The translations under genes and the position numbers were made by a program. This document shows, in pieces, positions 14,479 through 18,842 of a stretch of DNA of 24,636 nucleotides. The DNA is from a virus. The stretch is taken from positions 1 to 24,636 of IMG/VR virus record IMGVR_UViG_3300042910_000059. One strand, written 5' to 3'. The notes below the pieces were generated by a model. It saw only the letters and a list, made by a program, of their open reading frames with translations, made no database searches and was not told the DNA's origin. Every line of letters begins with the position of its first letter. The first letter of the stretch is position 1.

Positions 14479-14955
14479 CTACCCCCTCCCCCACGACGCT
14501 GTAAACGTGTATGTGAACCGGGGTATGCCCATGTAAAGGCTGATCTTTCTGATTTTCAAGCCCTTGTAGGGGATGAGCACTTTCCGCTCTGGAACATCCA
14601 CGTGGATTCCGAGAACCCGCATGACGTCTAAGCCTAAAATCGGCGTGAAACCTTTGTCGTAAATGGTCCACGTGTAAAGTTTGCGTCCGCCAACCTCTAT
14701 CAGTATATATGCAGCCTTCACGCGTTTCGAGCTGCCGTCAGCCAACCCCACGTCAACCACTCCGCTAGCTTCCAGATCAAGCTTTTCAGCCAACTCGCTG
14801 CTTATAGCGCAGCCTGTGGCCCCCGTGTCGACGAGAAACTCAACCTTCTCCGATTTTTTAGGATCCATTGGGTTGGCTATTTTCGCGTCTATGAAAATGT
14901 AGTCTTGGTCGTCTATTTGGCGAATATGCCAACGTTTCAAATGAAACCACACCAT
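14479..14955 (-). CDS. retropepsin-like aspartyl protease
   Basis: A 158-residue protein with a single-copy retropepsin (clan AA) signature: FLVDTGATGCAIS at about residues 40-52, giving the catalytic DTGA, followed by strands, GLADGSSKRVKAAYILIEVGG and the matching hydrophobic-Gly motif FTPILGLDVMRVLGI at about 109-123. Proteases of this fold act as homodimers, each subunit giving one Asp. It lies between a small membrane protein and the small terminase gene, in the late operon, so it could process virion or host proteins. There is already a serine-type prohead protease, so its target is unclear. The family call is strong; the role is inference. Confidence 0.85.
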   Translation of the reverse strand: MVWFHLKRWHIRQIDDQDYIFIDAKIANPMDPKKSEKVEFLVDTGATGCAISSELAEKLDLEASGVVDVGLADGSSKRVKAAYILIEVGGRKLYTWTIYDKGFTPILGLDVMRVLGIHVDVPERKVLIPYKGLKIRKISLYMGIPRFTYTFTASWGRG

Positions 14956-15738: not shown

Positions 15739-15972
15739 TTATTTAACGAGTTTTTGAGCACTTTTCAACGCTTGTCTGTGTTTTCGGCTTAGGCTATAAA
15801 TGGGCCTCGAACGAAGCTGAATATGGTGAATAGGGCAAACTGGAACCCTGCGGGTGATTAGAACAATGTTTCCATCCGCATCTTCAAAACGTGTTTCCAA
15901 CCACAGGATTTCTTCAGCTGGATACCACTTCTCGCACCTAGGGCAATAATAGTTGCCGTCGTATTTCGGCAC
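15739..15972 (-). CDS. zinc-ribbon protein
   Basis: A 77-residue protein from GTG 15972 (GGAGGGGG seven bases upstream). CPRC at about residues 10-13 and CPIH at about 46-49 give a four-ligand zinc ribbon with Cys3-His; the C-terminus is a basic helix (RKHRQALKSAQKLVK). Such small proteins often bind DNA or RNA and act as transcription regulators in archaeal viruses. It is the first gene downstream of the GCTNN array, whose near edge is about 33 bases from the start, so the array would lie in its 5' leader. Confidence 0.68.
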   Translation of the reverse strand: MPKYDGNYYCPRCEKWYPAEEILWLETRFEDADGNIVLITRRVPVCPIHHIQLRSRPIYSLSRKHRQALKSAQKLVK

Positions 15973-16005
15973 CTTTCCCCCTCCAATTTATGGTATTTCA
16001 ACACC

Positions 16006-16360
16006 GCTTTGCTTCGCTTCGCTCTGCTTGGCTTCGCTCAGCTAAGCTAAGCTGCGCTTTGCTTGGTTCAGCTTCGCTATGCTGGGCTCCGCTTTGCTTA
16101 GCTGCGCTTTGCTTTGCTCAGCTCTACTCGGCTAGGCTTGGCTATGCTTTGCTGGGCTATGCTTCGCTTCGCTAGGCTCAGCTTAGCTGCGCTTTGCTTA
16201 GCTCGGCTAGGCTCCGCTTTGCTTTGCTAAGCTTCGCTATGCTTTGCTTTGCTTTGCTAAGCTAAGCTAAGCTAAGCTATGCTTCGCTCGGCTAAGCTGG
16301 GCTCCGCTCTACTCAGCTAAGCTCTGCTATGCTGCGCTACGCTAAGCTAAACTAAACTCA
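16006..16360. repeat. degenerate pentanucleotide array (GCTNN)69
   Basis: From 16006 to 16350 the plus strand is 69 consecutive 5-base units, of which 66 begin GCT; the exceptions are gttca (16066), actcg (16126) and actca (16311). Two decayed units (actaa, actca) follow to 16360. There is not one insertion or deletion in phase. The last two bases vary widely: TT 12, AA 11, TC 8, AT 6, CA 5, CT 4, GC 4, six others 3 each, AC 1, while GA and GT never occur. The period is not a multiple of three and all frames meet stops, so it is not coding, except that the last codons and stop of the RAMP-like gene lie in it. It fills the only gene-free stretch over 300 bases (15973-16341). Confidence 0.97.
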
Positions 16361-16872
16361 AGGACTTTGAATCGTCCGAAGCCGTTGACGCGGTTGCTTC
16401 CTATGCCAATTTCAATACCGGCTTGTTCAAAGTCGTTTTTCAACTCTTCAGCCGTTTTTTCCAGTGTTGTGACGAGGAATCCTTCGGCTTGCCATCGGTC
16501 TATCCGTGGTCTAACGCAGAAGTCTCTCACGCCTCCCCGGCTTATGTTTCCGGATGGAACGCTGCGTTTGTCGATTATGTAGTTTTTTATGCCTAGGTCA
16601 AGCATGTATGGTTCTACGCGTATTCGTGGGGCTACTTGAAGCCTTGTTTCGCTTTTCTTTTTGGGCGGAGCGTTTAGGATGTAATAGTCTATTAGGCAGC
16701 CGCGGATCCATTCGCATGGGATGCCAAGGTTTCCGTTTGGAAGGCGGTAGGCGTGGGCTTCAGCCTGTTCAGCGTCGCTTTTCTGTTTAAGCAGTTTTTC
16801 TTCTTCAATCCCGTTGAACTTGTGCATTAGGATGGGTGTTAAGCCTTCAATTCTAAATTTACACTTCAACAT
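16342..16872 (-). CDS. RAMP-like small protein of viral type
   Basis: A 176-residue protein. It opens with a strand and IEGLTPILMHKFNG, a motif common in uncharacterised phage proteins, has a Pro/Arg-rich middle (PRIRVEPY, VRPRIDRWQAEGF) and ends GIEIGIGSNRVNGFGRFKVLEF. The last segment looks like the glycine-rich loop and final strand of RAMP/Cas7-like ferredoxin-fold RNA-binding proteins. No Cas genes are nearby, so a stand-alone nucleic-acid-binding role is more likely. The ATG at 16872 overlaps the upstream stop by seven bases. Its last codons and TAG lie within the GCTNN array, so the array has grown into, or out of, its 3' end. RAMP relationship is a motif-level inference. Confidence 0.65.
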   Translation of the reverse strand: MLKCKFRIEGLTPILMHKFNGIEEEKLLKQKSDAEQAEAHAYRLPNGNLGIPCEWIRGCLIDYYILNAPPKKKSETRLQVAPRIRVEPYMLDLGIKNYIIDKRSVPSGNISRGGVRDFCVRPRIDRWQAEGFLVTTLEKTAEELKNDFEQAGIEIGIGSNRVNGFGRFKVLEFSLA

Positions 16873-17876
16873 GGAGGCAGCACCGTTCCCTTGCTTTTAA
16901 GCTTGTAAAAACAAATTGTTTGGGGGGCTAGTGGGATTCCTTTTACGGCGGGTTTGAAGCCGAAATCTAAAAGGTCGCTGCAGTCCACGTTTGCACGTCG
17001 GTAGAATTCTCCGCCCTTCAGGAAATAGTCTTTGTATCTTATGCGGGGGTCAATGTATTCGACTCCGCTGCTGTCCGCGTAAAACCTCACGATTGGCGCG
17101 CCTATGTCGCTGACGGGCAGGCTTCCTTCCTCGGCGTATCCTGGGTAGCGTAGGAAGCAGCCTGTGCTTAGAAGGTATTGGCGTATAACAAGCCTTCCGA
17201 AAACTTTTCCGTCTCCTGCAACCGTGAACATTGTCATGGGGTGCCAGTCCATTTTGTGGATGTGACCGTGGGCTATTATCGTGGTCGCCCAGATTCCCCG
17301 GCTTCGCCTCAATTGAGCGTCTAGAATGGTTGTGGCTTTCGAGCGTCCGTGAAGCATGTAAACGCTGTAAAGCTGGTCGCCTGCTTTAACCGCAGCCAAT
17401 ATTCCACGTTGAGGCGGAGCCGTGTAAATGTCTGGGTTTTCAAGTTTCTCCTTGCAGTATTCAAACAGGTCCACAACCATTCTGCCCTGTTTAGCGTAGC
17501 GTTTCTCATGGTTGCCCCAAATCAAGGTTTTAATGCGTTTGGCGAAGGGTTTGAAGTCGCTGAGGAACATTTCAACCTGCAGTCTTTCAGGAACCTCGGC
17601 TTCCTTCACGAAGTCGGCGAGGTCCTGCATTTCAAAAACGTCGCCCATCATGCAGATTTGCACGTGTTTCCGTTTTTCAAGCAAGCCTAGATACTTGTGG
17701 AGGTGGCTGAAGCTGTGCTGGTTGTGTCCATAATGGAAGTCGCCCATGAAGATTATTTCGCCGAAACTCCGCGTCTGCCCCTCAATTTTTTCTTTGACAA
17801 CGGGCAGGTCAATCAAAACGAAGTTTTCAAAGTCAAGGTCAAGCTTTTCGCCGAAAACAATCTGCATGTCCTTCAT
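16866..17876 (-). CDS. calcineurin-like metallophosphoesterase
   Basis: A 336-residue metallophosphoesterase with all the usual metal-binding blocks: GDFHYGH at residues 45-51, GDVFE at 78-82, GNHEKR at 121-126, a lone His in MLHGRSK at about 176, and GHIHKMD at 204-210. The family contains Mre11/SbcD nucleases and phage nucleases or phosphatases. The unusual C-terminal 110 residues, with several aromatic strands, are not those of canonical Mre11. No Rad50-like partner lies in the window. Next to the helicase, methyltransferases and RAMP-like gene, a DNA or RNA processing role is likely; the substrate cannot be told. Confidence 0.88.
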   Translation of the reverse strand: MKDMQIVFGEKLDLDFENFVLIDLPVVKEKIEGQTRSFGEIIFMGDFHYGHNQHSFSHLHKYLGLLEKRKHVQICMMGDVFEMQDLADFVKEAEVPERLQVEMFLSDFKPFAKRIKTLIWGNHEKRYAKQGRMVVDLFEYCKEKLENPDIYTAPPQRGILAAVKAGDQLYSVYMLHGRSKATTILDAQLRRSRGIWATTIIAHGHIHKMDWHPMTMFTVAGDGKVFGRLVIRQYLLSTGCFLRYPGYAEEGSLPVSDIGAPIVRFYADSSGVEYIDPRIRYKDYFLKGGEFYRRANVDCSDLLDFGFKPAVKGIPLAPQTICFYKLKSKGTVLPPC

Positions 17877-18165: not shown

Positions 18166-18631
18166 ACTCCCTTAAAACCTCATTTAGAGTTTTGTTTTCC
18201 CGTTCCCAAACATAAACAAGTTTAACTTGTGGTGAAACCTTCTTTAAGACATAGATCTGTTTCAAAACAAACGGCTTAGGCAACAAGTAAATCAAGTTTC
18301 CAAGAATAAAGATAACCCTTCTTCTTGTAACACGGACAATTTCATGCATTAGATTTTCCCATTTATCCCAATTTTGTGGTCCCGCCCATGGAGGATCAGC
18401 TATTGTCGTGTCAAACTCCAAATCTTTGAAAGGCAGCTTACCCTCTGAAAGGTCAATTTTATGCGTGGCAACTGGACTGTCTATATCTACACGAATGTCG
18501 CCAAGAAGACTACGCCCGCTAAACAAATGTAAAACCCTACCGATACAAAGCTTGGCGTAGAGACGTTCTTCTTGTTCACTCCACACCCAAGCTTCTCTAA
18601 ACAACATCACTGGTTGTTTCCGCTTATCCAC
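18122..18631 (-). CDS. DPPW-motif amino-methyltransferase
   Basis: A 169-residue SAM-dependent methyltransferase. VLHLFSGRSLLGDIRVDID is the SAM-binding motif with its acidic end, and FDTTIADPPWAG holds the catalytic DPPW of N6-adenine or N4-cytosine enzymes. It is short and has no target-recognition domain that I can see. GTG 18631 is chosen since GGAGGGGTG lies directly upstream and the start overlaps the preceding stop by eight bases. It may modify viral DNA against host restriction; an RNA substrate is possible. Some stretches are more AT-rich than neighbours, which could mean a separate origin. Confidence 0.78.
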   Translation of the reverse strand: MDKRKQPVMLFREAWVWSEQEERLYAKLCIGRVLHLFSGRSLLGDIRVDIDSPVATHKIDLSEGKLPFKDLEFDTTIADPPWAGPQNWDKWENLMHEIVRVTRRRVIFILGNLIYLLPKPFVLKQIYVLKKVSPQVKLVYVWERENKTLNEVLRECGETSGVQTCPCEG

Positions 18632-18842
18632 AGTTGCACCCCTCCTCAGCAACAGGAGCTTCTTTCTCCAACGCGTCCAAATCCTCAATTTTCAACTCCA
18701 ACAGAAACGGGCATTTCTCACAGTCGCCGACGCCGTTACACCACACGTGGTAATTACAGACTATGGCAACTTTCCTAGGAAGCTTTTCGGCTTCCTCTTG
18801 CATCCGCCTTAAACGTTCAAACTCGCGGCTGCACACTCTCAT
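18624..18842 (-). CDS. small Cys-rich protein
   Basis: A 72-residue protein from ATG 18842 with a charged N-terminal helix and a Cys cluster (CNYHVWCNGVGDCEKC) suggesting one zinc or iron-sulfur site, then an acidic tail ending GCNCG. It overlaps the genes on both sides. It lies between two methyltransferases, so it may help one of them. Function unknown. Confidence 0.62.
   Translation of the reverse strand: MRVCSREFERLRRMQEEAEKLPRKVAIVCNYHVWCNGVGDCEKCPFLLELKIEDLDALEKEAPVAEEGCNCG

Follow-up and report, generated by a model that had tools for sequence, protein, structure and literature searches.

What is the function of a long, strictly periodic array of DNA pentamers that begins inside the last codons of a small viral gene, and does the product of that gene act on it? 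The locus lies in a 24,636-base stretch of prokaryotic-virus DNA (an IMG/VR record, label G000), hereafter referred to as the window, whose gene content includes a portal, a terminase, a capsid protein, a Mu-F-like protein, an integrase and a C5 DNA methylase. The region at 14479-14955, which adjoins the terminase genes of a head-tail virus, encodes a retroviral-type aspartyl protease domain (PF13975, E 1.7e-9) and is possibly a prohead protease gene. A TerL search of genome_contigs found no provirus. Three close relatives of the virus are used for comparison throughout: G1 (L001; L128 and L129), G2 (L123, L130) and G3 (L124, L131). The coordinates of the features discussed below are collected in Table 1.

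Table 1. Features of the vipr locus in the window (window coordinates).
Feature	Position	Strand	Description
vipr gene	16342..16872	-	RAMP/Cas7-fold protein, 176 aa, as predicted from profile matches and model
vrRNA-type array	16004..16360	-	AGCNN on the vipr strand (GCTNN on the plus strand), 69-71 units, spacerless
Ten-unit block	16149..16198	-	NN letters the same in the G1 array; candidate kept guide
Codon of C119	16516..16518	-	Vipr residue tracking the repeat triplet, two before invariant R121
Metallophosphoesterase	16866..17876	-	Overlaps vipr by 7 bases; PF00149, phrog_7339
Exchanged cassette	15971..16949		blastn blocks end at 15970 and restart at 16950 in G2 and G3

An earlier note on this DNA had described an ORF with a C-terminal G-x-G-x5-GFGRF pattern, a stop codon within the array and an overlap of seven bases with a metallophosphoesterase gene. 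All three features are present: the 176-residue ORF ends in GIGSNRVNGFGRFKVLEFSLA, its last codons and stop fall within the first array units on the vipr strand, and bases 16866-16872 are common to both ORFs. The array itself follows a strict five-base period that is far above chance, with 66 of 71 consecutive units at 16006-16360 starting with GCT and 0 in the other phases. Both N positions take all four bases, and 14 of the 16 dinucleotides are used. No other run of four or more GCTNN units occurs on the plus strand of the window, and the single one on the other strand falls within the array. At 69 units, this is the longest of 517 high-diversity arrays located within 2.5 kb of 136 non-redundant Viprs at the loci listed; one GGY run of 140 units (L262), also among the loci listed, lies outside that comparison. 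Ten consecutive NN units are common, in order, to the window and G1 arrays, the maximum over 1000 shuffles of the window units being six. Examination of two array ends (window and G2) for a structured 3' tail revealed no clear fold, and no Rfam family was matched.

Pfam returned no match for the protein, tblastn against named phages returned none, PADLOC gave a weak Cas6 match (E 0.0048), and the sole clear match in a family library was to phrog_4652 (E 3e-7, residues 7-170), to which PHROGs assigns no function. A profile built on an alignment of 28 relatives, the window protein included (A1), matched PDB entry 36pp_D, 'SUSP1 Vipr protein', at E 2.1e-48. When 7715 ORFs were searched with a second profile, built on 33 array-associated relatives with the window, L001, L123 and L124 omitted, the window protein was recovered at E 1.4e-19. 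A single-sequence structure model was discarded (pLDDT 34) and a model based on alignment A1 was used instead (pLDDT 92). The top PDB rows in a Foldseek search with this model are type III and type VII CRISPR subunits of the Csm3/Cas7 type (best E 2.5e-7), and structural re-comparison superposed it on the Csm3-type chain 6ifk_E of a Csm complex with a Z of 11.9 and an rmsd of 3.9 over 157 residues; the ten best structural rows share 10-14% identity with the window protein. In line with an RRM core that carries a glycine-rich loop, the model matches Csm3/Cas7 best and the protein has GIGSNRVNGFGRF at its C terminus. Profiles and predicted structure thus place the 176-residue protein in the Vipr family, with a Cas7/Csm3 RAMP fold, as the earlier description of a RAMP-like protein had anticipated.

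VIPR (Viral Interference Programmable Repeat) was described in a bioRxiv preprint of April 2026 (PMC13142463), beyond which the library searched gave no further literature on VIPR and vrRNA. In the systems studied there, which include that of Escherichia phage SUSP1, Vipr is a RAMP homologue that binds vrRNAs of 9-16 YNNGG units, whose NN pairs recognise DNA with one skipped base, and competing phages are repressed (PMC13142463). We assign the window locus to VIPR because protein family, fold and array agree. As in SUSP1, a small RAMP of one family is encoded by a phage beside a pentamer array that lies on the gene strand and combines a fixed triplet with hypervariable NN letters, the arrays of relatives having about 12 units. 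The triplet differs, being AGC in the window or GGA in relatives where the published one is GGY. So does the array length, with 69-71 units in one run against the published 9-16 (G1 carries AGC arrays of 28 and 11 units, and the GGANN arrays of G2 and G3 have 12-14); the window locus also differs in showing no visible tail structure and in having a phosphoesterase neighbour. The preprint words the repeat as 'GGY/NN motifs, or a related consensus' (PMC13142463), and we count AGC as such a related consensus because 27 of the 136 labelled non-redundant Viprs at the loci listed carry it; AGC may already be listed under this wording in fig. S17 of the preprint.

Under this assignment, the array would be transcribed on the vipr strand and Vipr would bind the resulting AGCNN RNA, each pentamer being occupied by a single subunit that holds the fixed AGC while the variable NN letters stay free to pair. 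With one target base skipped, the NN pairs would then guide the complex to DNA belonging to a rival virus or plasmid, where the bound complex would block transcription. RNA binding, the skip rule and repression are carried over from the other VIPRs (PMC13142463), and one subunit per pentamer and the same steps for AGC arrays are inferred by analogy with them. What was observed here is the fold, the family, the array, its strand, the association across viruses and the exchange of the cassette. On this basis we hold with considerable confidence that the locus is a viral VIPR system of this kind, mobile as a cassette, in which AGC replaces GGY. The earlier proposal of a protein coating repeat RNA or DNA at fixed spacing, outside ordinary CRISPR, comes close to the published mechanism, whereas the phosphoesterase partner that it included is not supported.

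To examine the association between Vipr and pentamer arrays, viral_contigs was scanned by DNA pattern alone, without protein information. The (GCTNN)x8 scan yielded at least 119 stretches, with Vipr encoded in 39 of the 119 listed (L035 being the same contig as L001), and the GGANN scan gave Vipr in 33 of 118 new loci among the matches listed; loci were selected by triplet, and these counts do not give the natural share of each code. With a Vipr profile iterated on the same scanned loci, Vipr was found among those listed at 38/52 AGC loci with high NN diversity versus 2/69 with low diversity, at 34/56 versus 1/66 GGA loci, and at 84/114 versus 1/47 GGY loci. A composition-matched control of loci holding CTGNN only gave Vipr in 1 of 44. 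Around the 136 non-redundant Viprs (loci listed), median array length is 13 units for AGC and 12 for both GGA and GGY, in keeping with the 9-16 units of the preprint (PMC13142463). In the opposite direction, five named phages were found to carry Vipr by protein similarity alone, and in three of them 10-12 GGT or GGC units form a clean run: SUSP1 with 12 GGT units, LESphi2 with 10 GGC and LittleE with 12 GGC. MakoManhole and Medea1 have weak runs only, of 4-6 units. Relatives of the gene, the earlier note had reasoned, ought to have the array, and Vipr relatives do repeatedly adjoin pentamer arrays. The Vipr homologues of LESphi2, MakoManhole, LittleE and Medea1 (L437, L438, L439 and L440) are annotated 'hypothetical protein'.

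Comparison with the three close relatives reveals how the locus changes over short distances. The Vipr of G1 is 98% identical to that of the window, and its stop codon lies at the array edge, unlike that of the window, which lies within the array. Against G2 and G3, blastn blocks are mostly 92-98% identical, the exceptions being one 2.7-kb block of 85% in G2 and a few short blocks of 79-92%. Alignment is interrupted in both at the cassette delimited in Table 1, where G2 and G3 carry a different Vipr together with their GGANN arrays; protein and repeat code have therefore been exchanged together. We propose that vipr and array move as one cassette because each Vipr reads only its own triplet. 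Two arrays are exactly identical between G2 and G3, and, judged by their sequences, their middle arrays look recombined. In G2, two GGANN arrays enclose a remnant of a further vipr C terminus (L123 2680-2740, read by eye as GGSFGLFEVAEFREVN), which is a trace of earlier cassette recombination. Elsewhere in the window, positions 18181-18675, which cover most of an ORF weakly resembling a DNA methyltransferase, are missing in G1 and G2.

The phosphoesterase raises the possibility of a nuclease-armed VIPR, in which this protein would be a vap accessory that cuts the bound target, leading to destruction instead of repression. That the two genes overlap by seven bases in the window is suggestive of such a role, the phosphoesterase family (PF00149, E 4.7e-6; phrog_7339, E 5.4e-21) includes members named 'DNA repair exonuclease', and VIPR types III-V have predicted nucleases or helicases (PMC13142463). 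However, at phmmer-level sensitivity and among the loci listed, no loci other than those of the window, L001, L123 and L124, all related viruses, have the phosphoesterase next to vipr. The gene also stays in place in G2 and G3 where vipr has been exchanged, with only its last ~28 codons altered, and phages recovered independently of VIPR also carry related phosphoesterases. We consider this alternative unlikely. With its vicinity to vipr limited, at phmmer-level sensitivity, to four related viruses, the phosphoesterase was rejected as a general Vipr partner, and the earlier proposal that it belongs to the unit is not supported; it may be a lineage-specific accessory or a mere neighbour.

A different reading dispenses with guide RNA and takes the array as a double-stranded DNA site, such as origin iterons, a partition site or a recombination hot spot, to which the RAMP-fold protein would bind. 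The borders of the exchanged cassette coincide with array borders and arrays have recombined with one another, both of which such a site would accommodate. A double-stranded site would not, however, be expected to obey a strand rule, and among the loci listed the arrays lie on the vipr strand in 107/114 cases for AGC, 167/168 for GGA and 319/320 for GGY. The fold is that of an RNA-binding RAMP, and RNA has been shown for homologous loci (PMC13142463), which together leave this reading with a low probability.

The RAMP subunits of class 1 CRISPR systems coat RNA periodically. Vipr shares with these subunits (Csm3/Cas7) both the fold and the periodic coating of RNA (PMC13142463), but their period is six bases where that of the window is five, and no other cas gene was found among the window ORFs searched. 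Fold and weak Cas6 match are what one would see in a stand-alone Cas7 relative captured from a CRISPR system; against such a capture, the sequence family is that of Vipr, and no cas gene besides the RAMP was found among 20 window ORFs searched with Pfam, five of them also with PADLOC, in agreement with the absence of Cas genes asserted earlier. Capture is thus very improbable. Least probable of all is a slippage-generated tandem repeat beside an unrelated gene: plain GCTNN repeats are indeed common, and the 117 (GCTNN)x13 loci found in cellular genomes, with 0 Viprs and 0 diverse NN, are therefore plain repeats, but the window NN letters are diverse and belong to the array class linked to Vipr.

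If the window array encodes VIPR guides, their targets might be recognisable. For the window array, a search of the window itself and the three relatives brought out no target, one high score being obtained (a window guide against G3, 19/20 at skip 0), and none was found in 8.06 Mb of fetched virus DNA searched on both strands. An exact 8-unit window pattern had four matches in viral_contigs, of which 0 extended by one unit on either side, and the same kind of pattern search with the GGA guides of G2 gave 17 matches, the best with 23/28 letters and none convincing. For AGC guides as a whole, matches of at least 18/20 letters numbered 18 observed against 4 shuffled at skip 1, 6 against 9 at skip 0, 9 against 4 at skip 2 and 2 against 8 at skip 3; 10 of the 18 skip-1 matches come from two locus groups and none from the window array, and the skip-1 excess is suggestive only. 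GGA and GGY arrays gave no clear excess in the same small DNA pool. In the first of the two AGC locus groups, 11 units of a long AGC array in L051 (10142, minus-strand index) match L025 (~2746) and L074 (~3412) in 21/22 NN letters with a 1-nt skip. In the second, the AGC guides of L072 (~7017) and L093 (~6931) match array-near sites in their own and each other's locus, also with a 1-nt skip, possibly reflecting self-regulation or cross-targeting.

The coexistence of several triplets within one protein family allows the repeat code to be set against Vipr sequence. The labels AGC, GGA and GGY require 25 changes among themselves on a quickly built tree of 139 Viprs, and all six triplet labels require 28 versus 48.6 when shuffled, a value as low being reached in 0 of 200 shuffles; the codes are therefore clustered but often switched. 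The window groups with L046, L086, L033, L040 and L095 (AGC) and seven GGY rows, on a long branch with an SH-aLRT of 85 (not starred) that makes its placement unsure. At a few Vipr loci, the best run of diverse pentamers along the vipr strand has another triplet, GTT (L202, L208, L237), CAG (L435) or GCT (L059), which may be further codes or false labels. These three labels, with one representative each after removal of copies at 90%, were omitted from the code comparisons, which used the 136 labelled Viprs introduced above.

Selected as the best among all well-filled alignment columns, column 119 is the one most tied to the code (z 14.8, the next 9.3), holding Cys in the window and Lys in L123. 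Arg or Lys occupies it in 1/27 AGC, 21/23 GGA and 79/85 GGY proteins, or in 100 of the 108 GG-code proteins with a letter there, one GGY row being gapped. SUSP1, a GGY system, has Ser at this column; residue 119 is therefore not the whole code. Supported branches provide five independent pairs, of which a mean of 4.4 change in the expected direction and 0 in the opposite one, five pairs being a number that cannot reach 0.05. The column of Q36 was considered as a second code position and set aside, its association (Q/P in 18/27 AGC proteins, E/D in 76/108 GG-code proteins with a letter) being weaker than that of C119. From these sequence comparisons we infer that residue 119 contributes to the recognition of the first triplet base. 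A more general proposal, which we put forward tentatively and judge to be somewhat short of an even chance, is that VIPRs use at least three codes (GGY, GGA and AGC) with many switches between them, that position 119 of the x-x-R-P motif largely sets the first triplet base, Arg/Lys specifying G and its loss A, and that exchange of the vipr and array cassette swaps orthogonal systems in an otherwise unchanged virus.

Discovered only months ago, VIPR has a bearing on how CRISPR originated. The different code of this locus, together with natural code swaps between close viruses, suggests that orthogonal VIPR guides exist in nature, and a candidate code-reading residue makes the recognition by Vipr of its own RNA directly testable.
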